Made by a program: the position numbers and the translations under genes
Shown here: positions 48,017 through 62,443 of the stretch, piece after piece
Layout of the letters: every line of letters begins with the position of its first letter
How positions within the stretch are numbered: the first letter of the stretch is position 1
Notes under the pieces: generated by a model
Told to the model about the DNA's origin: nothing
Database searches by the model: none
Seen by the model: only the letters and a program-made list of their open reading frames with translations
Source of the DNA: Calothrix sp. NIES-4105
Lineage (GTDB): Bacteria > Cyanobacteriota > Cyanobacteriia > Cyanobacteriales > Nostocaceae
Direction: 5' to 3'
DNA: 64,000 bases
NCBI RefSeq assembly: GCF_002368415.1
Contig: NZ_AP018290.1
Coordinates: forward strand, 3,113,614 to 3,177,613

Positions 48017-50341
48017 ATGCCTAAACGGTCTGATGACGGAAATGGCTCAAAAGCCTGGGAGCGAAAGGTTTTGAGAGAGTGGGACATCGACCGTTTACTT
48101 ACAGATTTGGAGATTAGAATTCAAAAACGCTACAGACAAAATACTAGAAAAGATTTATTGATAGGTTTGTTGTGTGGGTATAGTTTAAAGCATATTAGTA
48201 AGGATTTACATAAAGATAATGCCGTAGTTAGGACGAACGTTAGCAGTATATATAGAGACATAGAGACTTTAACAGGCGAAGCACACAAAAGCGTTAAAGC
48301 TTGTAATTTAGTTCATATATTGGAGAAATATGGTTATCGCGTGGGTTCAACTGTTATGGGTGACTCTAACCGTGATATTACTCACAATCTGCCGGCGCCA
48401 ACTTACACCGAGTTTATAGGTCGCGAAGCAGAAATGAAACTGTTGTTGCAGCGTCTTTCTCCCGAACATGCGGCTCATATTATTACTGTCGATGGAATTG
48501 GTGGTGTTGGTAAAACAGCATTGGTGCTAGAGACTGCTTATCTATGTTTGAATGCTAGTCGAAGGTGTCTTTCTGGCTTGCCTAAATTCAATGCGATTAT
48601 TTTTACTTCTGCAAAACAACAAGAGCTTATTCCTAAAGGACTCGTGCTACGACAGCAGGGACAGCGCAACTTACGCGACATTTTTAGAGAAATAGCTCAT
48701 ACTCTTGACGAACCTGCAATTGTCCAATCTCCTCCAAACGACCAATTCGATAGGGTTCGGCAAACGCTAGCTAAACAACGAACACTACTAATTGTGGATA
48801 ATATGGAGACGATTGAGGAAAGCGAGAAAGTTATCGCTTTTTTGTATGATTTACCCGCGCATGTTAAGGTTTTAATTACGACGCGCGAGCGCATTGCTTT
48901 GCTTCCTATCAGTCTGCGGCATTTACCTCAAGATGATGGTTTGCAACTAATTCAACAACAAGCTTTAGAAAAAGGTATAAATATAAACCAAGAGGATTCA
49001 AAGCTTCTTTACCAACGCACTGGTGGAATTCCCCTAGCTATTGTTTATGCTATTGGACAAGCATGTAGCGGTTACTCGCTCAATTCAGTATTAGGGCGCC
49101 TTGCATCTTCAACAGGAGATGTAGCTCGGTTTTGCTTTGAGCAATCAGTGCAAGGCATAAAAGAACACCCAGCACACAATTTATTAATATCACTAGCGAT
49201 TTTTCCCGACCCCCCAATTTTAGAAGCTGTGGCAGAAGTCGCAGGGCTAACAGCATTTTCTGATAGTGTAAATGATGGCTTGGCGCGCTTGCAACAACTC
49301 TCGTTGGTTACTCTTAACCAAAGTACAGGACGCTATGAAATGCTTTCGCTGACCCGTGAGTATGCTTTTGCAGAACTAGCTGCAAACCCAAAATTTGAGC
49401 GTGAGGCACGACTGCGTTGGGTAAACTGGTACTTGGATTTTGCCAGTAGTTACGCAGGAGAAGATTGGGAAAAATGGGTAAATTACAACAAACTAGGAGA
49501 CGAAGAAGGAAATTTACGCGCGGTACTCAACTGGTGCAAACATCAAGACCGTTATGAAAAAGTTCGGGATTTATGGTTATTATTGAGTCACTATGTAAAT
49601 CTCTATGCTTATTGGGATGATCGTCTTGATTGGTTAGAATGGTTAATTCAGCAATCTGAACGACGGGGTGAATGGTCATCTTTTGTACAATTTGTAATTC
49701 GTAAAAGCTGGCTATTGATTCGGTTATGTGATGACAAAAGTTTGAAAGAAGCAGAGGAAATATTACAGCGAACATGGGTTTTACATAACTATGTAGACTT
49801 TTATGTTCAAGCGGACTTAGCCGAGAGTATGGTCAGGTTAAAAATTAGACAAAAAAACCATGAAGAAGCACGTGACTGGCTAGTAACTGAACAGGAATTG
49901 GTAGTTAAAGCAGAATTGAAACCGCAAAAACACATCCGCTATTTTATCCCCGTTCTCTATCATGAAGCTGAAATTTGTTATCAAAAGGGTGATTACACTA
50001 AAGCAAAAATACTTTTTGAAGAAGTCATGGAAAGTGCCGAAGAAATTCGCTGGTATAGAGTCATCAATTCTGCACAGAATTGGCTAGCTGATATTGCTAT
50101 TGAGTTAAACAAACGCGATGAAGCGCAACAGCTATTAATCAAAGGTTTAACTGTAGCTGAAAGCAGTAAAAACAAACGTCGTCTAGCTCGTTACCAACGT
50201 TCTCTTGCTCATTGGGAACAAAAGTGGGGATGTCAAGAAAAAGCGCGCGAATTAGCAACTCAAGCAATGAATAATTTTCAGTATCTAGGGATGATGCGAG
50301 ATGTTGAGAGAATGCAATCTTTAATGATGAATTTTGATTGA
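48017..50341 (+). CDS. NB-ARC STAND protein with vMAP-like N-terminal HTH
   Basis: A 774-residue NLR-like protein. Residues from about 15 to 95 (RKDLLIGLLCGYSLKHISKD, then NVSSIYRDIETL) match the helix-turn-helix of vWA-MoxR-associated (vMAP) N-terminal domains. The NB-ARC part starts near 130 (PTYTEFIGREAEM) with the P-loop GIGGVGKT at about 160-167, Walker B in LLIVDNME, the arginine sensor in LITTRERI, and a GLPL-like TGGIPLAI. The C-terminal 300 residues are helical TPR-like repeats. Such proteins act as sensors in bacterial conflict systems. No effector gene of the usual vMAP set adjoins it, so its partner is unclear. Confidence 0.85.
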   Translation: MPKRSDDGNGSKAWERKVLREWDIDRLLTDLEIRIQKRYRQNTRKDLLIGLLCGYSLKHISKDLHKDNAVVRTNVSSIYRDIETLTGEAHKSVKACNLVHILEKYGYRVGSTVMGDSNRDITHNLPAPTYTEFIGREAEMKLLLQRLSPEHAAHIITVDGIGGVGKTALVLETAYLCLNASRRCLSGLPKFNAIIFTSAKQQELIPKGLVLRQQGQRNLRDIFREIAHTLDEPAIVQSPPNDQFDRVRQTLAKQRTLLIVDNMETIEESEKVIAFLYDLPAHVKVLITTRERIALLPISLRHLPQDDGLQLIQQQALEKGININQEDSKLLYQRTGGIPLAIVYAIGQACSGYSLNSVLGRLASSTGDVARFCFEQSVQGIKEHPAHNLLISLAIFPDPPILEAVAEVAGLTAFSDSVNDGLARLQQLSLVTLNQSTGRYEMLSLTREYAFAELAANPKFEREARLRWVNWYLDFASSYAGEDWEKWVNYNKLGDEEGNLRAVLNWCKHQDRYEKVRDLWLLLSHYVNLYAYWDDRLDWLEWLIQQSERRGEWSSFVQFVIRKSWLLIRLCDDKSLKEAEEILQRTWVLHNYVDFYVQADLAESMVRLKIRQKNHEEARDWLVTEQELVVKAELKPQKHIRYFIPVLYHEAEICYQKGDYTKAKILFEEVMESAEEIRWYRVINSAQNWLADIAIELNKRDEAQQLLIKGLTVAESSKNKRRLARYQRSLAHWEQKWGCQEKARELATQAMNNFQYLGMMRDVERMQSLMMNFD

Positions 50342-50370: not shown

Positions 50371-51564
50371 TCATCCATGATTAATCAGCGGATTTCCAAC
50401 TTCAAAATAATCTTCCATCCATAAAGAACCTAAAGTAGCTCCTTCTTCAATAAATTCTTTAATACCCCGCATATCAGAGGTTCTTTTTGCTTGGGTGAAA
50501 CCATTTTCATCTCGATAAAGTACCCATAGTTCTTCAGGTTTAAGATTATCGACAAAAAAGGGAGAATGAGTTGTAATCATTAATTGGCTGTTTGCTGAAG
50601 CCGCGCGACATTCTTCTGTTAATTCTGGTAGTAAACGCGGATGTAAATGATTTTCTGGTTCTTCGATACCAATAAGTGGTGATGGTTCTGGGTCATATAG
50701 TACTGTTAAATATGCCAGCATTTTTAGTGTACCATCGGAAGCATATTTAGCAAGAATTGGTTGCTGAAAAGGAGCGTCTTTAATTTGCAGTGAAAGGCGC
50801 CCATCTTGCATAATTTCTGCATCAACTCTTTCAAGACGTGGAACGCGGCTAGATAGACTATTCAGAATATGCTGTAAACGCTCTGGATGTTCTTCTTTAA
50901 GATAATGGATAACGTTAGGTAAATTATCTCCTGTTGGTGATAATCTTTCCTGTAATTCTGATGAAGGAAGTAACTTTGTATTGTCTGCACTCAGGTAGGA
51001 AAGATACCAACCACTAATAAAGCTACGTAATGCACCAACACGGGGGTATTTGGCAAATTGTCCTAAGCTACTAACTGCTAGGAGTTCTTTTGAGTTTAAC
51101 TGCTCAAATATAAGCTCGCTATGCTCCCAAGGATTTTCCCCCATTATTACCTTTCCTGCTCCTTGTTGAAAGTCAAGAAATTTAAAAGGTTTACCGTCCC
51201 CTATTTTCCACTGTAACCACTCTTGCGCGACATAAGGACCTTTGGATGTTTCGTCAATAGCTAAATGATAAGTAATAATTGGTAAATATGGCTTTTCTTG
51301 GTACTTTAACTCAATTATAATAGCATCAGTGGCGCCGCGCGTCCGTAGTTCTCGAAAACGTCCACGTTTGTCCCAAGCTTGTCGCAAGCCTACTGTAAAA
51401 CATTCAGATAAAAAAGCCAATACGTCAAGAATAGTTGATTTACCGCTGCCATTGGGTCCTAAAAAAACGGTTAAAGGCGTAATTCCTTCTAATTCTAGGT
51501 CATGCAGCGCACGATAGTTTTTTACTCTCAGATATTCAATACGCGGGGTTACATGTTTAGCCAT
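50371..51564 (-). CDS. AAA family (ABC/OLD-like) ATPase
   Basis: A 397-residue ABC-type ATPase of the AAA_21/AAA_15 group. Walker A is FLGPNGSGKSTILDVLAF, the signature-like segment is YASDGTLKMLAYL, Walker B is PLIGIEEPENHLHP, and the H-loop is LMITTHSPFFVDNL. The short central region lacks an SMC-like coiled coil. Relatives pair with a TOPRIM-like or DUF4276 protein in defence loci, but here the downstream neighbour is the convergent NB-ARC gene, so no partner is visible. It is convergent with that gene, 29 bp apart. Confidence 0.8.
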   Translation of the reverse strand: MAKHVTPRIEYLRVKNYRALHDLELEGITPLTVFLGPNGSGKSTILDVLAFLSECFTVGLRQAWDKRGRFRELRTRGATDAIIIELKYQEKPYLPIITYHLAIDETSKGPYVAQEWLQWKIGDGKPFKFLDFQQGAGKVIMGENPWEHSELIFEQLNSKELLAVSSLGQFAKYPRVGALRSFISGWYLSYLSADNTKLLPSSELQERLSPTGDNLPNVIHYLKEEHPERLQHILNSLSSRVPRLERVDAEIMQDGRLSLQIKDAPFQQPILAKYASDGTLKMLAYLTVLYDPEPSPLIGIEEPENHLHPRLLPELTEECRAASANSQLMITTHSPFFVDNLKPEELWVLYRDENGFTQAKRTSDMRGIKEFIEEGATLGSLWMEDYFEVGNPLINHG

Positions 51565-51905: not shown

Positions 51906-52292
51906 ATGGCACGCAAATTAATAGAACTAGACGCAGGGGATGGCAGCACTATTTTAGTAGCTGTAGAAGTACCAGAAACTTCAGTAGGGCGCGTATCAGC
52001 TCCTGGTGATGCTCCTATAGAGAAAGTGGACAAGAGTTTCAGCGCTGTTAAAGATTTGATTATACACGGATGTCGTCCAATTACTCAGGCTTTTCGCGCT
52101 TTACAGAGAGAATCGCAACCTGTGAGCGCTGAAGTTGAGTTTGGGATAAATTTTACTGTAAAGGGTTCAGTTTACGTGGTGGAGTCAACCGGACAAGCTT
52201 CATTAAAGGTGAAAATAACTTGGAATTTAGCACTAGGAATGAATAGTTTGTCACTGCCGCAAGCTTCCCAGTCGGAAGATACGAGTTCGTAG
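51906..52292 (+). CDS. Trypco1-type (CU044_2847-family) small protein
   Basis: A 128-residue single-domain protein. LIELDAGDGSTILVAVEVPE, SFSAVKDLIIHGCRPITQAF and EVEFGINFTVKGSVYVVES match the small trypsin-co-occurring domain family (Trypco1, CU044_2847-like), which is found next to trypsin-like proteases in conflict systems. It lies 58 bp before a trypsin-TIR gene, as expected. It has no signal or membrane segment. Its biochemical role is unknown; it may be the substrate or regulator of the protease, which is inference. Confidence 0.8.
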   Translation: MARKLIELDAGDGSTILVAVEVPETSVGRVSAPGDAPIEKVDKSFSAVKDLIIHGCRPITQAFRALQRESQPVSAEVEFGINFTVKGSVYVVESTGQASLKVKITWNLALGMNSLSLPQASQSEDTSS

Positions 52293-52350
52293 TACTGAGT
52301 ATTTAAGTGTAAGTGTTTACAAACGTTCGTTGTGTAAATAGTCAATTTTT

Positions 52351-54501
52351 ATGGCTTGGAATTTAGTAAAGGCTTGTACTGTGTCAATTTCTACCCCTGA
52401 TGGTAATATTCGGGGTACAGGTTTTTTCGTCTCATCTGAGGGACATTTGCTGACCTGCGCTCATGTCGTTGAAGATACTGGTGGTTGGGAACAGATGCGG
52501 GTAAATGGGCAAACGGTTGAGTTGATTTACTTGGGGAATTGTAACTGCGACGATTTTGCAATACTGAAATTGCCTGGTTATCGAGGTGCTGCGGTTCCAC
52601 TATCTTTGGAATTTGAGCCGATGGATAGGTTTTTATCAATTGGCTACGGACGTTCGGATTTTCCTCAAGGTGCATCAGTTGACGGCACTATTACCGACAT
52701 TAACCCCCAAGTACAGTTTAGCAATTTACCAATGTTGCGATTGCGAGTTAAAGCTAATTCGCAACAGGTGCAAGGAGGTTACAGTGGTTCACCTGTTTTT
52801 GATGCGGAAAGCCAGGGAGTAGTTGGAATAATTACTGCTCACGATGAAACCGAAGGAGCATTAGCTTTACCGCTTTCAACTGTTGCAGAAAAATGGTGTG
52901 AATTTTCCAAATTTATGGATATTAAGCCAATTGTACCAATCCTTGAAGCCAGCGATTGCAGAAGAGTTTTTATCAGCTACCGCAGCGAAGACCCAGATAT
53001 GAGCCTTGCCCAAAATTTCTATGAAGGCATCAAAGCGGCTGGACATCAAGCCTTTATCGCAGGAGAAAGTATTCGTTTGGGAGAAAACTGGGCACAGCGT
53101 ATTGATAGAGAATTGGAACGGTGCGATTACTTTTTGTTGTTACTATCATCCAAATCGGCAGCAAGCGAGATGGTGACGGAAGAGGTACGACGGGCAAAGC
53201 AGTTGCAAGATTTACGTCCTGAACACAAGCCTGTAATTTTGCCTATTCGCGTTAACTTTCCTCTAACTTCGCCACTAAATTATGATTTGCGGGGTTACTT
53301 AAACCAAATCCAGCAACGTGAATGGAAGTCACCTGCTGACACATCCAAAATTTTGCAAGAAGTATTAATGCTATTAGCCGAAAATAGCAGGGACACGGTA
53401 AACGTTGCCCATATAGAAGAATCGATAACAGCATTGCCTGCCGTAGAAACTAAAGACAATCCTCCGTTACCCGTTGCAGAACCCGAATTACCAGAAGGAC
53501 AAGTAGATTTAGCTTCGGCTTTTTATGTTGAACGTCCTCCAAATGAGGAACGCTGTTACGAAGCAATCGTTAAACCAGGTTCGCTGATTCGCATCAAAGC
53601 ACCTCGGCAAATGGGTAAAACCTCCCTAATGGCAAGAATTCTTCATCATGCTTCACAAAAAGGTTATCTCACTGTACCATTGAGCTTCCAACTAGCAGAT
53701 GGTAAGGTATTTGCAGACTTAGACCAATTTTTACGCTGGTTTTGCGCTAGTATCGGGCGTAGGCTGAGATTACCTAACAAATTAGTAGATTTTTGGGATG
53801 AGATATTTGGGAGTAAAGATAATTGCACCGCTTACTTTGAAGAATATCTCCTGGCAGAAATTAATCAACCTCTTGTTTTGGGTTTGGATGAAGTCGATTT
53901 AGTGTTTCAGCATCCCAAAGTTGCTGCTGACTTTTTTGGATTGTTACGTGCTTGGCATGAAGAAGGCAAAAATCGTGATATCTGGAAGAAACTGCGGTTG
54001 GTTGTAGTGCATTCGACCGAAGTATATATGCCGATGAATATTAATCAATCGCCTTTTAATGTTGGTTTGCCAATTGAGTTACCTGAATTGGATACTGAGC
54101 AGGTACTTGATTTAGCGCAACGACACGGACTTAATTGGAGTTTTACAGAAGTTAAGCAATTAATGGCGATGGTGGGAGGACATCCATTTTTAGTACGGGT
54201 GGCAATGTATCGTATTGCAAGGCTGGATACAACTCTGGATCTACTTTTGCAGACAGCACCGACCGAAGCAGGACTTTATGGTGACCACCTACGACGGCAT
54301 TTGTGGAATTTAGAACAACGTCCAGAGTTAGCAACTGCTTTTAAAAGGGTTGTTACAGAAATTACCCCGATTAAGTTAAATCCGATAGAATGCTTTCAGT
54401 TACTTAGCATGGGCATGGTGCATTTACAAGGAAATGATGTAACGCCGCGCTGTAATTTATACCGTCAATATTTTAAAGAACGCATTGCGTCTACAAAGTA
54501 G
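52351..54501 (+). CDS. Trypsin-like protease - TIR - AAA_35 fusion protein
   Basis: A 716-residue three-domain protein. Residues 1-195 are a trypsin-like protease with His38 (LLTCAHVVE), Asp68 (DDFAILKL) and Ser145 (GGYSGSPV), so the triad is complete. Residues from about 204 to 340 are a TIR domain: RRVFISYRSED, FIAGESIRLGENW, FLLLLSSKSAASEMVTEEV; a Glu of the last segment is in the place of the NADase catalytic Glu. Residues from about 390 to 710 are an AAA_35-type ATPase with P-loop PRQMGKTSLM and a Walker B-like VLGLDEVDLVF. It thus joins protease, probable NAD-consuming effector and switch in one chain. It is followed after 20 bp by a second AAA_35 gene. Confidence 0.88.
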   Translation: MAWNLVKACTVSISTPDGNIRGTGFFVSSEGHLLTCAHVVEDTGGWEQMRVNGQTVELIYLGNCNCDDFAILKLPGYRGAAVPLSLEFEPMDRFLSIGYGRSDFPQGASVDGTITDINPQVQFSNLPMLRLRVKANSQQVQGGYSGSPVFDAESQGVVGIITAHDETEGALALPLSTVAEKWCEFSKFMDIKPIVPILEASDCRRVFISYRSEDPDMSLAQNFYEGIKAAGHQAFIAGESIRLGENWAQRIDRELERCDYFLLLLSSKSAASEMVTEEVRRAKQLQDLRPEHKPVILPIRVNFPLTSPLNYDLRGYLNQIQQREWKSPADTSKILQEVLMLLAENSRDTVNVAHIEESITALPAVETKDNPPLPVAEPELPEGQVDLASAFYVERPPNEERCYEAIVKPGSLIRIKAPRQMGKTSLMARILHHASQKGYLTVPLSFQLADGKVFADLDQFLRWFCASIGRRLRLPNKLVDFWDEIFGSKDNCTAYFEEYLLAEINQPLVLGLDEVDLVFQHPKVAADFFGLLRAWHEEGKNRDIWKKLRLVVVHSTEVYMPMNINQSPFNVGLPIELPELDTEQVLDLAQRHGLNWSFTEVKQLMAMVGGHPFLVRVAMYRIARLDTTLDLLLQTAPTEAGLYGDHLRRHLWNLEQRPELATAFKRVVTEITPIKLNPIECFQLLSMGMVHLQGNDVTPRCNLYRQYFKERIASTK

Positions 54502-54521
54502 TCTTGCCTGGAGGTTGTTTG

Positions 54522-57500
54522 ATGAATACTATACATAATCAAGCTTACGAATATCAAGTTGGCGGAAGTTTACCTGTTAATGCCCCTAGTTATGTCAAGC
54601 GTCAAGCAGATGATGACCTATGCTTGGCATTGAAAAATGGAGAGTTTTGTTATGTGTTAAATTCGCGGCAGATGGGTAAGTCGAGTTTACGAGTGCAAAC
54701 GATGCAACGGTTGCAAAATGAAGGTGTTGCTTGTGCAGCAATAGATTTAACTAGGATTGGTAGTCAGGATCTTACCTCTGAACAGTGGTATGCGGGTATA
54801 GTGCGGAGTTTGGTAAGTAGTTTTGAACTTAGAGACAAGTTAAATTTACCAACTTGGTGGCGGGAACACAATTATCTTTCTCCTTTACAACGACTCAGCG
54901 TTTTTCTTGAAGAAGTTCTTTTAACTCACGTTTTAAAGCAAATAATTATTTTTATTGATGAAATTGATAGTATCCTTAGCCTCAATTTTTCAATTGATGA
55001 TTTTTTTGCATTAGTTAGGTCGTTTTATGACAAACGTTCTGATAATCCTACATTGAAACGTCTTACTTTTTGCTTACTTGGGGTTGCTACTCCATCAGAT
55101 TTAATAAAAGATAAAAAACGCACACCATTTAATATCGGTAAAGCAATTGAATTAAGCGGTTTTGAATTACAAGAAGCAGAACCACTAGCAAAGGGATTAG
55201 AGAATATAGTTGAGAATCCTCAGCAAGTATTACAAGAAGTTTTGAAATGGACTGGTGGACAACCCTTTCTCACCCAAAAAGTTTGTAGACTAATCCTTAG
55301 CAATCAAGAAAAGCTAAGTATAGGACTATTAGTGCGATCACAAATTATTAAAAATTGGGAATCACAAGATGAGCCGGAGCATTTGAGAACTATACGCAAT
55401 AGAATTTTAAGTGATGAGGAAGGTGTTGGTCTGCGACTAGGGTTATATCAACAAATTTTGGCAGAAGAGGCGATAGAGGCTGATGATAGTCAAGAACAGA
55501 TGGAACTGAGGCTTACAGGGTTAGTTGTTAGAAGACAGGGTAAGCTGTCGGTTTACAACCGAATTTATAGAAATGTGTTTAACCAGAGGTGGCTTAAAAA
55601 AGCATTAGCTAATCAGCGTCCAGAATTCTATCATCAAGCCATAACAGCTTGGTCAAAGTCTAAATATCAAGATTCCTCATGTTTGTTGCGCGGAAACTTA
55701 CTAAAGGAAGCCCAGAATTGGGCAACAGGTAAAAACTTGAGTCGTGAGGATAGCAAATTTTTAACTGCTAGTTCAGCGTTTGAGACGCAAGAATATGAGA
55801 AGCGCCTTAAAACACATAACTTTAATTTTAAAAATGGTGAAGCTTCCTCAGTCACGGAACTGATTACTTTGTGTGATCAATATCCTGAAGAAGCTCAAGA
55901 ATACTTATTCATTAATTATTTGGAAGATTGGCTGAAAAGAGAAGGAAAAAATGATTTAGCAATTTTGTCGCGTAAGATTGTCAGTTCTTACCAGACTGAA
56001 AAGCGGAGAGGTTTGGAGATGTTTGTACGAGGAATGTGCGAATCTATAGAACAAGACCCATATCCAAAAATATTTTTTGAACCGAATGAAATAGACTTTG
56101 GCGAGATGCCAGTTGGATATCAAAAGAGTTTTCACTTAAAGATTACAAATCAAGGACGTGGTTTTGCATGGGGAGATGTTATACCTAATGGTAATATTCC
56201 GGGTATAAAGGTTTATAATAAATTTGATTCTCATAGTAAAATATTTGATATAGATTTGGATACTTTTGAGCTTTATCCTGGTAATTATTATGGTTATATA
56301 GAAATTATATTAGGAAATATAAATCAAAAACTTAGATTTTATATAAAATATATAGTAGTAGCATTAAAAGTCGGTATTGAACCATCTCAATTAAATTTAG
56401 GAAGGATTGCACATGGTAGCCACTCTATTCCTAAATTGCTAAAAGTAACTATTGAACCTTCTGATGCAAAGATTAAAGCATTTGCTTCAACCCATAACAC
56501 TTATTTACAAGTCGCACCATCTAATTTTGAAAGCTCCTCATTAGAACTATCTTTAACTATAGATACAACATCGCTAGAAGCAGGTTTATATCGGGATAGA
56601 ATCTACCTAAAAATTAATAATAGTCAATTCCAAGTACCCGTTTCTTTTAGAAAACCATTTCGATGGGATGTAATTTATAAATGGACTACTATAATAAGTA
56701 TTCCGATCGGATTATTTATGTACTGCATCCGCTACGTTTTAGATAAAATTATATCAGTGGGTTTAAATGATAATTGGGTTTTGTCATACCCACCTGAAAT
56801 TAGTAAAGCTTCCTTTTTAAAACCAATTTATCCTCTTAATATATTTGATACACCAGATGTTCAATTGGCATATTCAATATTAGGATTAGTAATACTTTTT
56901 GTAGTTTATCTAATAATAAGAATTACACATCGCTATGATTTGGACAATTTTAAAGAACAATTAAGAATCAAAGTAGAGCTATTTTTAAATTCAATAAATG
57001 AACTAAAACAACATCAAAATAATCAAAATAATACACATACTTACATAACAAATACGCATCAACCTAGATATATTTACAACAGATATAATCAAACAAATCA
57101 AATAATAACACTTATTTTTATTATTGCAATTATATTACTTTTGTTAATTGTATGGTTTATCGTTGGCTTTATTATTAGTTTTGTAATAAATACTTTCGCA
57201 TGGGTCGGTTCGAGCTTTATTCTTATTCTTGATTCAATAGTATATCCATTTACTATTATTGGCATAAAAAAACCAGCGGTTGCATGGCTTATATTAGGTT
57301 GTTTAACTGGTGGAGTTTTAGGACTAACTCAGGCACTCAAATACTTACAACAATATTCTTATTTATCAAAAATATATAAATTTACTATTGCCATAGTCTT
57401 AATACTATCGTTAATTACTTCTATAATACTTAAGCCTCAACACAATACAGATTTTTTTCCGAACACCCTGGTTCAGGATGATTTCAAATCTCCATCAAAT

Positions 57501-58022
57501 AATTGGAATATATCCTCTTCCGCCAAAATAAAAAATGGAGGACTATTCTATAATGAAACAAAAAAGAATAATGTCAGTACATCTATATGGAGTGGCAACA
57601 ACAATATAATTGCTAACTTCGATTTTTCTGCAAGTACAAAAAAAGTAAATGGTTCCGATGATTTACAATTCGGTTTAATTGCTAGATATAACCGTCAAAC
57701 TCAATCTAATGGAGATAATTTTTATTACTTGCTTATTCAAGGAAATGGAGAGTTTGCAATGGGAAAGCTCTCTGCAAGTAATAAGTGGGAGGATAAAGTT
57801 GGTTGGCGTAAGTCTAATGTTATTAATAAAGGTAATAGCATTAATAGACTGAGAATCGTGTGCTATGAGCGAAAAGTCATTGGTTGGATTAATGATCAAA
57901 GAGTCGGAATATTTGAAGATGACTCACTTACTTCTGGGCAAATTGGATTTATATCAGCGCGAGGCGAGGGTGATTCAGTCGCTGTATATTTTGATAATGT
58001 AATTGTTAAGACAAAGTTCTAA
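54522..58022 (+). CDS. Membrane AAA_35 protein with beta-sandwich and LamG-like domains
   Basis: A 1166-residue protein. I start it at the ATG at 54522, seven bases after GGAGG (54510-54514). Residues from about 10 to 390 are AAA_35: YVKRQADDDL, P-loop NSRQMGKSSLR, Walker B IIIFIDEIDSIL, GGQPFLTQKVCRL. After a helical linker come two Ig/ASPM-like beta-sandwich units (FEPNEIDFGEMPVGYQKSF; IEPSQLNLGRIAHGS), then at least five membrane helices (about 725-970). The extracytoplasmic C-terminus (DDFKSPSNNW ... DNVIVK) resembles the 3-keto-disaccharide hydrolase/LamG fold. The ATPase would be cytoplasmic and the lectin-like end outside. Overall architecture is unfamiliar to me. Base use is AT-rich without GGCGCC. 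Confidence 0.82.
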   Translation: MNTIHNQAYEYQVGGSLPVNAPSYVKRQADDDLCLALKNGEFCYVLNSRQMGKSSLRVQTMQRLQNEGVACAAIDLTRIGSQDLTSEQWYAGIVRSLVSSFELRDKLNLPTWWREHNYLSPLQRLSVFLEEVLLTHVLKQIIIFIDEIDSILSLNFSIDDFFALVRSFYDKRSDNPTLKRLTFCLLGVATPSDLIKDKKRTPFNIGKAIELSGFELQEAEPLAKGLENIVENPQQVLQEVLKWTGGQPFLTQKVCRLILSNQEKLSIGLLVRSQIIKNWESQDEPEHLRTIRNRILSDEEGVGLRLGLYQQILAEEAIEADDSQEQMELRLTGLVVRRQGKLSVYNRIYRNVFNQRWLKKALANQRPEFYHQAITAWSKSKYQDSSCLLRGNLLKEAQNWATGKNLSREDSKFLTASSAFETQEYEKRLKTHNFNFKNGEASSVTELITLCDQYPEEAQEYLFINYLEDWLKREGKNDLAILSRKIVSSYQTEKRRGLEMFVRGMCESIEQDPYPKIFFEPNEIDFGEMPVGYQKSFHLKITNQGRGFAWGDVIPNGNIPGIKVYNKFDSHSKIFDIDLDTFELYPGNYYGYIEIILGNINQKLRFYIKYIVVALKVGIEPSQLNLGRIAHGSHSIPKLLKVTIEPSDAKIKAFASTHNTYLQVAPSNFESSSLELSLTIDTTSLEAGLYRDRIYLKINNSQFQVPVSFRKPFRWDVIYKWTTIISIPIGLFMYCIRYVLDKIISVGLNDNWVLSYPPEISKASFLKPIYPLNIFDTPDVQLAYSILGLVILFVVYLIIRITHRYDLDNFKEQLRIKVELFLNSINELKQHQNNQNNTHTYITNTHQPRYIYNRYNQTNQIITLIFIIAIILLLLIVWFIVGFIISFVINTFAWVGSSFILILDSIVYPFTIIGIKKPAVAWLILGCLTGGVLGLTQALKYLQQYSYLSKIYKFTIAIVLILSLITSIILKPQHNTDFFPNTLVQDDFKSPSNNWNISSSAKIKNGGLFYNETKKNNVSTSIWSGNNNIIANFDFSASTKKVNGSDDLQFGLIARYNRQTQSNGDNFYYLLIQGNGEFAMGKLSASNKWEDKVGWRKSNVINKGNSINRLRIVCYERKVIGWINDQRVGIFEDDSLTSGQIGFISARGEGDSVAVYFDNVIVKTKF

Positions 58023-58181: not shown

Positions 58182-58824
58182 CTAACCGGATTCAACAGCA
58201 AACCACTGCTGCATTTGGTTACATAGCTTTTGAAAAGCTGAATCTTGACATCCTTTAATGGAAACTCGACTAGTTATCTGACGATAAATAGCTGATGAGC
58301 GAGGAGTCTTAGACATTTTTAAAGTATCTTCCACTGCTTTTTTTGGGTCAGAAGGTTTAAGTTCGTCAGTATTCCATAAACCTTTTTGAGCTAACCAGCT
58401 TCGCATTGATATGTTTTTTTGCTGAAATCGAAATGCTTTTTCTACGACTGGAGAATCCTGTAATATCCAAGCTTCTAGTTCTGGATTAATAACTATTACA
58501 ACAAAATTATTCTCATCCCAGCCAGTTGCGCGCACATTTTTTACAATATTATCTTCAATAGCTTCTATTCCTGGCGAACCGTCCCAAGCATTATCCAGAA
58601 CTATAACTGCATAAAGATGTGTTCGTTGATAAGAGCGGAGAAATTCATGCGCGCGTGTGTAGACTCCGCTCTTCGTTTCCCATTTCATCGACAATAATAT
58701 CCTGCTGCGGGTCGAAATCAAACTGTCGAATACCCAGACTAAAATGAAAACCGTCTCTTGTCAAAAAACCTATAAATGTAGCTTCCATGTTTTTATCTGC
58801 TAACAGGAAAATACAATCTCTCAT
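58182..58824 (-). pseudogene. TOPRIM/DUF4276-like protein gene split by a frameshift
   Basis: Two overlapping frames belong together. The first starts with the ATG at 58824, overlaps the ATPase stop by ATGA, reads MRDCIFLLADKNMEATFIGF and DIIVDEMGNE, and ends at 58645. The second, open from 58721 to 58182, continues with SGVYTRAHEFLRSYQ, then VIVLDNAWDGSPG and INPELEAWILQDSPVVE. A single extra base near 58660-58670 would explain the shift. The DxD-like and ELEAW motifs resemble DUF4276/TOPRIM nucleases that accompany ABC-type ATPases in defence loci. It may be a true mutation, an assembly error or recoding; the region has no +1 signal that I recognise. Confidence 0.75.
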
Positions 58825-60035
58825 CCTAGTACCCCCGCAGCAAATAGGGAACCAAGGTCAATTTTACCTTGCCAATCTTGAAGACATGGGTGTATTGAAC
58901 CTGGTATTGCTTCAACACCTTTTTCTTTACTGGAGCGCATGACAATTACTGATTCTAAATCTGTATGTGCTAATACTATAGGAGAATGAGTAGATACCCA
59001 AACTTGAGAATCGTAAACTGAACTTAAAGATTGTAATACTACTTCAATAGCTCTGGGATGAATGCCGTTTTCTGGTTCTTCTATAAAAATTAAACTCGAT
59101 TGTTGGGATAAATAAGGCAAAATAGTCAAAGCTAAAATATGCAGCGTTCCGTAAGATAAACCCGAAGAAGTAACAGTGTGATTGCCTGTATATTTTAGTT
59201 GTAGGTATGCGTGATAATCTTCTTCTCGTTGTAAAGCTTTAATTCCTATTAAATTAGGTAAAGCCATTTTAATATGCTCTACCCAAGAATCAAATAAATC
59301 TGGTTCTTGCTGCTGTAAATTTAAAACTAACCAAGGTAAATTTGCTGCATCTGAGCGTAAAGTTTTTGGTTGACCAGGTGGACAAGCGCGACGTAAAAGT
59401 GCCCAACTAGGTTCATAACGCATTACGTTTCTTTCTAATAAATTTCTAAACCATAGTGCTAGAGAGAATTTCTCAGAATCGCGCGGTACATTCGATAATG
59501 CTAATTCTTGTGGTTCTAATCTTAATATGATGTTATCGTTATCGTTTTCAGCATTGAGAATTGTGACTCCATCTAGTCCACGTTTAATAATTGTTGAGAC
59601 ATGAAGATTTTCTTCTGTGTAAGTAGATTTTGAAAAAATATACAATAATTCTTCCGTATGAAGCTCAATATTGCTAATAATATGAAAATTTATTTCATAC
59701 CGCACGTGACTAGGACGTTGTTGGTTAAGGGTATGTAGCGAGTTAGCAATTATACTTTCAGGCAAATTAGCTTCTATTGCAAATCCAAAATTATTTCCTT
59801 GCTGGTAATGCACCAACTCCTGCAAAGAAAGCGCTCTTGGACTTCCTGCGATAGAAGGAGATTCTAAAAAAGCAGGAATTAATCCTTTAGATAGAATTTC
59901 AGCTAGTAATAAAGGAATATCTAATAGCGTACTTTTACCTGTACCATTGGCGCCTGCTAATACGTTGTATTGACCTACTGTTATATCAAGTCGGTTAAAA
60001 CAACGATAATTAAAAGCTTCTATCCGAGAAATCAT
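58821..60035 (-). CDS. AAA family (ABC/OLD-like) ATPase paired with TOPRIM-like gene
   Basis: A 404-residue ATPase. Walker A is LAGANGTGKSTLLDIPLL, the signature-like stretch is TSSGLSYGTLHILAL, Walker B is LIFIEEPENGIHP, and the H-loop WVSTHSPIVLAH. Only a short insert separates the lobes. It is a distant relative of the ATPase at 50371. The next gene starts inside its stop codon, which shows translational coupling with the TOPRIM-like partner, the same logic as in ATPase-nuclease defence pairs such as PARIS (AriA/AriB), though not that family. With the partner frameshifted the system may be inactive. Confidence 0.84.
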   Translation of the reverse strand: MISRIEAFNYRCFNRLDITVGQYNVLAGANGTGKSTLLDIPLLLAEILSKGLIPAFLESPSIAGSPRALSLQELVHYQQGNNFGFAIEANLPESIIANSLHTLNQQRPSHVRYEINFHIISNIELHTEELLYIFSKSTYTEENLHVSTIIKRGLDGVTILNAENDNDNIILRLEPQELALSNVPRDSEKFSLALWFRNLLERNVMRYEPSWALLRRACPPGQPKTLRSDAANLPWLVLNLQQQEPDLFDSWVEHIKMALPNLIGIKALQREEDYHAYLQLKYTGNHTVTSSGLSYGTLHILALTILPYLSQQSSLIFIEEPENGIHPRAIEVVLQSLSSVYDSQVWVSTHSPIVLAHTDLESVIVMRSSKEKGVEAIPGSIHPCLQDWQGKIDLGSLFAAGVLG

Positions 60036-60273: not shown

Positions 60274-62301
60274 TCATCCGTTGCCAGATATTCGTACAAC
60301 TAAAGCATATGATTGAGGTTGGGTGATGCGATACGCGCGCACTATAATTTCAACTGTGGAAGCAGGTATATCATTCCAGATAACTTGTTCAACGTTGTTA
60401 TTCCTATCAAATTCTGTGGATGATGGCGCCATATTTCCATGTCGTTCTTGTCCATCAGATGTTTTTACAATTAAGTCTAAGTCATTTTGAAGTGCTTCTC
60501 CAGGGTAATCAGTCCATACTAAGGTTACTTTTAGTAACGAGTCACAATCTTTAATTTCAACTTCAATTTTTTCCTCTTCAAGTGTATCAAGAGCCGTGTT
60601 TTCATCTTTGAAAATAACTCGCTCGTTCTCACCTCTCGGCGCCACTGTTGCAGCTAAGTCAACTCTACCAAATCCTTCGGCAAAGTTAGGTATCTCTCCT
60701 GCTTCTGAGGGTACATATTGACCTGAGATATCTTTGGCGCCGTTAATAAGCATTGCTTTGATTAAAGCTGCACTAGGAGAATTATAACTTTCTTTCTTTT
60801 GGAAATACTCTCTAACTACCGCTGCACAACCTGCAACTAATGGTGTTGCCATGCTAGTACCGGATAAAAAGGCATAAAGGGGGTCTGTGGATGTGCCGTA
60901 AAATGGTTTTATAGCAGCTTCTCGTGAAGCAGTAGATAATATTACAGTACCAGGCGCCACAATATCTGGTTTAATACGATCGCCTTGAGTTGGACCTCGA
61001 CTACTAAAAGCTGCCATTCCTTCTGGGTTATTACACCAACCATCTGAAGCTATAGGTTCGGCACGATAGCGACCGAGAGTACTATATGGTTTTGATAGCT
61101 CAGGTCTATTATTTTCTGTGGCGCCAACTGTAATACAATTTTTCGCGGCGCCGGGTGAGGCAATAGAACCATTGTCAATAACTCCATTTACATCTCTATC
61201 ACGACCATCGTTACCAGCGGCAAAGCAGATAACCATGTCTCGATGTTCCCAGGCGAACTGGTCTACTTCTTGGCAATTTACATTATATTTGCCTGCGGTA
61301 GGGGCACCCCAAGAATTAGTATGAACGCGGGCGCCATCGTTTTCGTAAGGCACTTTAAATAAATTATTTAAATCTTCAGGTATACCTCCTAAACCTCCTT
61401 TGGGGTCTAAAAGAGATTGTAAAACAAGCTTTGCTTTAGGCGCCGCTCCTCTAATGGCGCCACCCATACTTTCTGAATAACCATCACCTAGCACCGAACC
61501 TGTAACGTGAGTACCATGTCCGTCAGGGTCAGAAGCTATTGCTTTTCCCAATGCGTAAAGCTTGAGTACTCTACCTGTAAAAGCGGGATGAACATCTTCG
61601 GTGGAACCTTTATCAAAACCACTGTCAGCTACCGCAACAATTTGCCCTTCACCTTCAAACTGGGCAATGCTGTGTGTTTTATCTGCATTCAATATAGTTA
61701 AAGCCACATTGTTAAAAAGTTCTGGCGGTACGTGTTCTTCAATATGTCGTACCTCATCTATTTTTGCCAAATCTTCTAAATACTGTGCTTGCACCGAAAG
61801 CCTAATTGAGTTACGCGCGAATTGTAAATCATCAACATTAATTTTAGCCGCACTACTCAGGCGCCTTTTCAGGTCGTCATTAATTTCAACATTATTATGA
61901 AATACAATATCAACTTCCTTCGGTTGCCGTGATATCGTTTTATCTAACTCACCAAGTTCAAGTAAATTAGTTCTTCTAGGGTCAATAGTACCAGGACGTA
62001 AACTAGGTGCAACTTTAAAACCTTCCAAATATATATTTGCCCATTGCACAAATGGTAAATTCCGAATAGCATCCAAATCAGCAGGTTCGTAACGACAGAT
62101 GTAAGCGTTTTCTGGAACGTATTCAAGAATAGAGGCGCCCCGGTCTGCTAGTTGACTTTTTTGCTCGCGCGTTAGCGGTTGAGTTGCTTGGATTATTATA
62201 TAGTTAGAGGTGGAACTATCTGGACTAATAAGACTGGCATATCCCATTGCATTGCTTTGCGCTGGGTCAATCGATATGCCATTGATAGTGATTTTCGTCA
62301 T
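60274..62301 (-). CDS. S8 (subtilisin-family) serine protease
   Basis: A 675-residue subtilase. The catalytic residues are in VAVADSGFD (Asp, about 225), DGHGTHVTGSV (His, about 266) and LSGTSMATPLVAG (Ser, about 487), and the oxyanion Asn is in CFAAGNDGRD. A prodomain-like N-terminal region of about 200 residues comes first, and a C-terminal beta domain with LVWTDYPGEALQNDLDLIV is typical of KP-43-like enzymes. There is no signal peptide, so it may work inside the cell or leave by another route. I prefer the ATG at 62301, which has GAGG five bases upstream, over the GTG at 62307. GGCGCC sites are dense here, unlike in the neighbouring conflict genes. Confidence 0.88.
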   Translation of the reverse strand: MTKITINGISIDPAQSNAMGYASLISPDSSTSNYIIIQATQPLTREQKSQLADRGASILEYVPENAYICRYEPADLDAIRNLPFVQWANIYLEGFKVAPSLRPGTIDPRRTNLLELGELDKTISRQPKEVDIVFHNNVEINDDLKRRLSSAAKINVDDLQFARNSIRLSVQAQYLEDLAKIDEVRHIEEHVPPELFNNVALTILNADKTHSIAQFEGEGQIVAVADSGFDKGSTEDVHPAFTGRVLKLYALGKAIASDPDGHGTHVTGSVLGDGYSESMGGAIRGAAPKAKLVLQSLLDPKGGLGGIPEDLNNLFKVPYENDGARVHTNSWGAPTAGKYNVNCQEVDQFAWEHRDMVICFAAGNDGRDRDVNGVIDNGSIASPGAAKNCITVGATENNRPELSKPYSTLGRYRAEPIASDGWCNNPEGMAAFSSRGPTQGDRIKPDIVAPGTVILSTASREAAIKPFYGTSTDPLYAFLSGTSMATPLVAGCAAVVREYFQKKESYNSPSAALIKAMLINGAKDISGQYVPSEAGEIPNFAEGFGRVDLAATVAPRGENERVIFKDENTALDTLEEEKIEVEIKDCDSLLKVTLVWTDYPGEALQNDLDLIVKTSDGQERHGNMAPSSTEFDRNNNVEQVIWNDIPASTVEIIVRAYRITQPQSYALVVRISGNG

Positions 62302-62443
62302 AGACACCTCATTCTGACTGCAAAAGCTAGCAAGCGTATTCTAGCTTGACGTATAAATTTTATTACTTACTTTTTATAGTTGTATTGTTTGTAAGAAAAC
62401 GTAAAAAACGGTATTTGATTATATAGCTATTAATACGAAATGC

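Follow-up and report, generated by a model that had tools for sequence, protein, structure and literature searches.

What holds together, in one cyanobacterial genome, a gene for a trypsin-TIR ATPase and a gene for a membrane ATPase with a seemingly lectin-like end? The question is raised by three consecutive genes in a 64,000-nucleotide stretch of Calothrix sp. NIES-4105 (the window; the genome of this strain is called the home genome below). A first, sequence-only reading had taken them for a candidate little-described conflict system, marked by the coupling of trypsin and TIR domains to a membrane ATPase with a lectin-like outer domain. From sequence comparison, the constant part of the locus is a pair of ATPases of two classes, rather than the Ig-like units, helices and lectin-like end of the third gene. 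The pair consists of component A, encoded by gene 2, and component B, encoded by gene 3.

51906..52292, + strand: gene 1 (Trypco1), 128 amino acids; PF19493, 68 bits (cut-off 24.6, E 1.1e-18)
52351..54501, + strand: gene 2, component A (trypsin-TIR-AAA_35 putative executor), 716 amino acids; Pfam
53476..54498, + strand: AAA_35 ATPase of class A in gene 2, Walker A K423, Walker B D513/E514; PF14516, 510.9 bits
54522..58022, + strand: gene 3, component B (putative sensor-side AAA_35 protein), 1166 amino acids; PF14516, 123 bits
54564..55583, + strand: AAA_35 ATPase of class B in gene 3, Walker A K53, Walker B D146/E147; PF14516

The home genome contains 61 AAA_35 matches, 21 of them at 388-514 bits (class A) and 33 at 50-135 bits (class B); the seven matches under 50 bits were omitted, which left 54 of the 61 for the adjacency count, one of the 33 class B matches being a fragment near an A gene. 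A class B match was found within 5 kb of 16 of the 21 A matches, compared to a mean of 0.73 and a maximum of 5 in 2000 random placements, and only one pair of A genes lies within 5 kb of each other. In four more genomes (56 of 69 matches used, 13 fragments or weak rows omitted), 17 of 24 A matches, including one partial and one 206-bit match, have a B within 5 kb (random 0.36, maximum 4 in 1000). The five genomes together give 33/45, with about 1 expected at random. In a tree built from 55 domains of each class, one branch with a support of 100 separates A from B. Among 69 A-B pairs within 5 kb, 58 are encoded on the same strand, and A lies upstream in 55 of these. The distances between A domains and those between B domains are correlated across 14 pairs of the home genome (Mantel r 0.75, p 0.0001) and across 35 sampled pairs (r 0.73). 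Since the 14 pairs all come from one genome, species history does not account for their co-diversification. Two single proteins carry a class B followed by a class A AAA_35 domain (locus L186, 9446-11662, and locus L192, 9493-11748), and a 1288-residue frame of genome G251 with a B and a partial A match is probably a third such fusion.

The pairing was also followed from either partner. Of 20 B loci from 20 genomes (one per genome in listing order, from rows matching the start of the C-terminal part and regardless of A; the home genome and two short contigs were skipped), 13 have an A in the stretch. With one A locus per genome (the best A, except for the second-best in G251 and G033), 20 of 39 have a separate B in the stretch and in 2 the sampled A is fused behind B, giving 22 of 39. 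In a draw of 117 genomes across the phylum, 41 have an AAA_35 domain over the cut-off, against none of the 14 controls; all 41 apparently belong to the window's taxonomic class, because the two matching genomes outside it had a best E near 0.001. Every aligned domain retains the Walker A lysine (90/90 A, 86/86 B). The Walker B aspartate and glutamate are present in 86/86 B domains, and in A domains in 70/90 and 67/90, respectively; the window copies keep both. Where class A proteins have a long C-terminal extension, the DE pair of Walker B is missing in 10 of 11 cases; where the long extension is N-terminal, the pair persists in 27 of 33. No published account of AAA_35 pairs was found in the literature searched, most subscription papers lying outside its reach; five papers there name AAA_35, of which one, on sigma factors, is cyanobacterial.

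The third gene is no lone oddity: in a draw of 217 genomes from the taxonomic family, its C-terminal part (Ig-like units, helices and lectin-like end) was matched at E up to 1e-10 in 23, one of them the home genome. A first scan of genome contigs had returned no match to this part, and in an order-wide draw near-full matches were confined to the home genome and one other of 243. The surroundings of the matches in all 22 other genomes were examined. In 19 of them the gene immediately upstream, read in the same direction, is an effector AAA_35 gene of the strong class (frames are split for A in L145 and for B in L141, L147 and L149); of the remaining three, one stretch stops at the end of its contig, one has only a remnant and one is a deletion fusion. 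The third gene is therefore not absent from homologous loci, and the gene order recurs in many genomes. The upstream partner has trypsin-TIR, TIR alone, trypsin alone, CHAT-TIR or unassigned N-termini, and the lectin-like end was found in only some members of the gene 3 family.

How far gene 3 can vary beside a trypsin-TIR partner was seen in a named set of 35 loci, obtained by searching named genomes with the trypsin-TIR-AAA_35 gene as query. Comparable A and B were available at 26 loci, 11 of them trypsin-TIR; the nine omitted comprise two A at contig ends, a split A without B, a split A with partial B, a deletion fusion and four fragments. A second AAA_35 gene is located next door at 11/11 named loci with an intact trypsin-TIR-AAA_35 gene. 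In these 11 relatives the A domain is 73-87% and the B ATPase 64-70% identical to that of the window. The remainder of B is less constant. Among the 12 trypsin-TIR loci (window included), six B proteins show the window's arrangement of ASH-type Ig-like units and transmembrane helices (ASH-TM), two of these with a lectin-like end, three carry peptidoglycan-binding domains, and one each is of a WD40, a trypsin and an unassigned membrane type. Thus, of the coupling first proposed, the second AAA_35 partner is constant, and the ASH-TM type (6/12) and lectin-like end (2/12) are not. The C-terminal half of B is of another type in 6 of the 11 relatives. At these six loci identity to the window is 81-87% for the A domain and 66-70% for the B ATPase, and the best match to the C-terminal half of the window's B stops by its residue 55-68. 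On the tree of A domains, the ASH-TM label requires at least four changes and the peptidoglycan-binding label three. All labels together require 13, compared to 17.4 in shuffles.

In many Nostocaceae the cassette is located between ureC and a gene for a hybrid response-regulator kinase. Both flanks of this slot are seen at 12 of the 35 named loci, nine of them with a comparable pair. These nine pairs comprise three effector types (trypsin-TIR, TIR and trypsin) and unassigned membrane, peptidoglycan-binding, ASH-TM, histidine-kinase, WD40 and periplasmic-binding sensors; the periplasmic-binding, histidine-kinase, peptidoglycan-binding and ASH-TM sensors each occur at the slot with at least two effector types. 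In 77 genomes, in which the flanks were paired by eye from the listed matches so that others may be missed, the gap between ureC and the kinase gene spans 66 to 13,527 bp, with 14 gaps shorter than 700 bp and 27 longer than 4,500 bp. Of the 27 large gaps, 20 were opened; six were already covered among other loci and G027 was left out. Ten of the 20 hold A and B (with broken frames in L254), two hold B alone and seven neither; four of the ten repeat named genomes (L255/L242, L256/L246, L257/L225 and L260/L227). The last of the 20 (L266) holds Trypco1 and a different trypsin protein, and the slot also holds unrelated large open reading frames. The cassette of the window lies outside the ureC slot. 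In the home genome, the slot retains a remnant of Trypco1 with 79-83% identity to gene 1; tblastn found neither A nor B in it.

Across the wider family, A appears from its domains to carry the outputs and B mostly sensor or repeat domains. The 68 A proteins outside the gene 3 family include GGDEF (10), TIR (8), HTH_26 (6), CHAT (5), HTH_3 (5), cyclase (2), LuxR-type (2), kinase (1) and sigma-70 region 4 (1) domains. WD40 repeats are present in 46 of 64 non-ATPase parts of B proteins, others carrying CHASE2, GUN4, GAF/PAS or TPR domains; periplasmic-binding and peptidoglycan-binding domains occur on B as well. In three proteins of 1796-2050 amino acids (L186, 14510-19900; L188, 12472-18624; L208, 3671-9454), the class B AAA_35 domain is C-terminal, the reverse of the usual order, and kinase, AAA_16 and GAF domains are found in the front parts of the L186 and L188 proteins.

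The effector end of gene 2 precedes its ATPase.

52414..52830, + strand: trypsin-like peptidase domain, triad H38, D67/D68, S145; Trypsin_2, 9.9e-16
52966..53319, + strand: TIR domain, likely catalytic E277 (E278 adjacent); TIR_2, 1.4e-18

All the domains assigned to gene 2 from its letters were recovered: the Pfam matches to Trypsin_2, TIR_2 and AAA_35, like those to Trypco1 and to the AAA_35 domain of gene 3, exceed their cut-offs, the AAA_35 domain of gene 2 by far (E 1.5e-153; cut-off 27 bits). The complete trypsin triad is invariant in 8/8 aligned family members, the window copy being one of the eight, and so is E277/E278 of the TIR domain. E277, which we take to be the catalytic glutamate from the spacing of the motif, would fit a TIR domain of the NAD-cleaving type. 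Assignment to Thoeris ThsB was rejected (PF08937 14.6 bits, cut-off 21.2; NCBIfam ThcB4 37.3 versus 220). Hydropathy gave no hydropathic helix in gene 2. A predicted model of the class A domain (predicted local distance difference test score, pLDDT, 88.7) has archaeal ATPases (2qen, 2fna) and ORC2 as its nearest solved folds in Foldseek, followed closely by Avs3 and two plant NLRs, RPP1 and ROQ1; Avs4 was also matched. The class A domain, as modelled, resembles the STAND/ORC-type ATPase fold, and the nearest matches would place it in the ORC/STAND branch; its C-terminal part appears winged-helix-like from the secondary structure of the model. With the class A domain as query, a sequence search against solved structures returned no firm match (best ORC2, E 0.12), and a profile search was dominated by the GGDEF domains of some class A members.

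Gene 3 continues behind its ATPase with three further regions.

56034..56696, + strand: two Ig-like (ASH/HYDIN-type) units; Pfam below cut-off, Foldseek
56670..57431, + strand: membrane region, 5 or 6 helices; hydropathy, helices also in the model
57474..58019, + strand: possibly lectin-like (jelly-roll type) C-terminal domain; PF06439 below cut-off, weak galectin matches

The AAA_35 domain proposed for gene 3 is present and weaker than that of gene 2 (1.6e-35; 123 bits, cut-off 27), and the membrane region agrees with the earlier count of at least five helices: hydropathy gives five between residues 781 and 969 plus a false-looking stretch at 127-145 inside the ATPase, and a sixth near residue 717 was seen in the homologue of L222. 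The other two assignments fared less well. For the two Ig-like units, Pfam stayed below the cut-off (HYDIN-type, 0.0048), and Foldseek supplied ciliary central-apparatus proteins (best E 4.8e-5). No LamG model matched the C-terminal end; nearest were PF06439 (20.5 bits, cut-off 26.8) and weak galectin matches in Foldseek (E 0.014 and above). Both sets of Foldseek matches rest on a poor model of the C-terminal part (pLDDT 61.5). The last helix is closely preceded by three lysines and closely followed by one, and by the positive-inside reading the lectin-like end is probably outside. A kinase-bearing, receptor-like protein of the home genome (L092, 6194-8986, - strand; PF00069 43.4 bits, cut-off 31.7) ends in a domain related to the C-terminal end of gene 3.

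The three genes follow each other on one strand with gaps of 58 and 20 bp, as first described; the 20 bp are counted from the ATG at 54522, one of two possible starts (54504/54522) and the one preceded by a GGAGG motif. Promoter and terminator scans gave no signal above shuffles. In the named set, with L251 and L252 set aside, Trypco1 was found at 19/19 loci with the trypsin of the cassette (two of them fragments without A) and at 0/14 loci without it; at L235 no Trypco1 accompanies an unrelated trypsin gene located about 7 kb away. Trypco1 is the probable partner or regulator of the trypsin domain. A phage origin of the cassette was rejected, as genes 1 and 3 had no match in PHROGs and gene 2 had two weak ones.

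Several known systems share parts of this architecture. Avs (AVAST) proteins place a STAND ATPase between effector and sensor, and Avs3 and Avs4 are among the Foldseek matches of class A; in Avs all parts form one polypeptide, whereas here they are divided between two and the sensor side is often membrane-linked. Plant paired NLRs such as RPS4/RRS1 consist of a linked TIR executor and a sensor with an exchangeable integrated domain. A-B linkage, order, co-diversification and fusions were seen here, A and B may act jointly in a similar way, and plant NLR cores were matched by Foldseek; in contrast to the plant pairs, membrane sensors and a protease are found here, and no shared descent of the pairing is claimed. 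The nSTAND2 system, as described by Kaur et al. 2021 (PMC8195603), likewise has two adjacent genes each with a STAND-type NTPase and variable domains on one partner, with a predicted hetero-multimer. There, one NTPase is eroded and effector-bearing, whereas in the window neither ATPase has lost a Walker motif, B is strict, and the effector lies on A with mostly sensor-like domains on B. Membership in nSTAND2 was rejected on these grounds, and the Pfam scan, with E up to 0.1, listed no nSTAND family for either gene 2 or gene 3. Trypco1 together with trypsin has already been described, as have conflict systems of multicellular bacteria (PMC7159879, PMC10907252). Among them, the VMAP/iSTAND MoxR-vWA ternary systems (Kaur et al. 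2020, PMC7159879) resemble the locus by Trypco1 beside trypsin, TIR domains and their occurrence in multicellular bacteria. They differ from it in that its core is a pair of AAA_35 ATPases, and no MoxR, vWA or VMAP/iSTAND was found among 10 proteins scanned between 44634 and 62307, so that this assignment was rejected as well. PMC8195603 also names an MNS-clade STAND "Npun2340/2341 family". This is possibly the same ATPase family under an older name, the prefix of which suggests a Nostoc source.

Taken as a whole, the locus probably encodes a two-ATPase receptor in which a sensor ATPase, B, switches an executor ATPase, A, in the manner of plant paired NLRs and with a putative immune output. 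The reading draws on sequence comparison for the two classes, their adjacency, usual order, co-diversification and fusions, the division into outputs and mostly sensor-like domains and the replacement of the C-terminal half, and on a predicted model for the fold of A. The variable C-terminal half of B (Ig-like units, helices, lectin-like end) would detect a ligand or damage at the envelope; surface sensing, suggested earlier, becomes more likely because homologues carry periplasmic-binding, peptidoglycan-binding or CHASE2 domains instead. Sensing would change the state of the strict AAA_35 ATPase of B, which would then contact and engage the AAA_35 ATPase of A, probably in a mixed oligomer, the signal passing from B to A. 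This engagement would switch on the N-terminal trypsin and TIR domains, with Trypco1 serving the trypsin as inhibitor, substrate or adaptor. NAD+ cleavage by the putative NADase and proteolysis by the putative protease would stop or kill the cell, a likely outcome being abortive immunity. The membrane disturbance, proteolysis and NAD depletion of the sequence-only reading are likewise hypothetical for this locus.

A bolder extension, held tentatively and at slightly less than an even chance, is that cyanobacteria run a large family of paired STAND-like receptors, a bacterial counterpart of the plant paired NLRs. Around a fixed ATPase pair, B would integrate almost any sensor and A almost any output, the ends being exchanged at a fixed slot as an evolving recognition locus; the trypsin-TIR versions would be envelope-watching abortive immune receptors. 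If so, bacteria would have evolved a split of sensor and executor between two linked STAND-like ATPases similar to that of plant paired NLRs, natural sensor exchanges could be read directly at the ureC slot, and a testable system for the licensing of an executor ATPase by a sensor ATPase would be at hand. Furthermore, a rule would follow that predicts roles for many uncharacterised cyanobacterial WD40 and "AAA-like domain" proteins, and envelope sensing would be placed beside TIR and protease outputs.

Several observations weigh against the receptor reading. Pairing is common rather than universal: 7 of the 20 B loci have no A in the stretch (at L161, B has lost its AAA_35 domain), 17 of the 39 A loci have no B, some of these stretches ending at contig ends, and 17 of the 33 class B matches of the home genome have no A within 5 kb. 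Where genes cluster, random placement controls only weakly for adjacency; the A and B profiles share the loci from which they were made, and co-diversification of A and B could also reflect duplication of the pair as a unit. The 13 label changes on the A tree being fewer than in shuffles, sensors are partly inherited. Since enzyme domains such as HisKA-HATPase, trypsin and protein kinase occur on some B proteins, a role of B as sensor in every case is too simple; moreover, the membrane side of the C-terminal end of gene 3 is uncertain. Finally, many A proteins carry HTH or GGDEF domains, so that the AAA_35 module is not immune as such.

The best-surviving rival, a possible but less favoured one, takes up this last point. 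In it, A/B pairs are environmental switches of general signalling, and the trypsin-TIR version answers envelope or nutrient stress, not phage. The pair does appear to be a general module, because GGDEF and HTH outputs occur elsewhere; A proteins outside the gene 3 family carry GGDEF (10/68), cyclase (2) and DNA-binding domains, and CHASE2, GUN4, GAF/PAS and periplasmic-binding domains on B suit such switches. For the trypsin-TIR subfamily, however, the TIR, CHAT and trypsin outputs, Trypco1, the defence-like neighbours, the decaying copies and the replacement at one slot fit conflict better, and the neighbours in the window together with the TIR and trypsin outputs favour a conflict role for the two-ATPase receptor. 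It is improbable, and was already disfavoured, that the genes are independent neighbours, the Trypco1-trypsin-TIR gene being a known type of conflict ATPase and gene 3 a mere operon passenger. Trypco1 does stand beside trypsin in other systems (PMC7159879) and B genes without A exist, but A precedes B in 55 of 58 same-strand pairs, and the Mantel correlation of 0.75 within one genome and the B-A fusions speak against it. Least probable of all is a decaying mobile cassette of little function, the slot and its variants being products of insertion and erosion. Copies that are broken, fused or incomplete (L238, L245, L247, L248, L249, L251) and the Trypco1 remnant in the ureC slot of the home genome would suit it, but the frames are open and the catalytic residues invariant in the window and the seven others aligned, and the A domain is 73-87% identical in 11 named relatives. 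The eight-member alignment suggests purifying selection on catalytic and Walker residues.

The genes next to the cassette in the window are partly defence-like. Just upstream, on the opposite strand (50371-51564, - strand), an ATPase near PADLOC HEC-01A (545.7 bits) is encoded, preceded by an NB-ARC-TPR protein beside the defence-like genes (48017-50341, + strand) with a short N-terminal extension without Pfam match. Downstream of gene 3, a MAD4-MAD3 pair was identified (58182-60035, - strand; NCBIfam 203.7 versus 160 and 506.3 versus 420), followed by an S8 peptidase with weak similarity to anti-phage IetS models (60274-62307, - strand).

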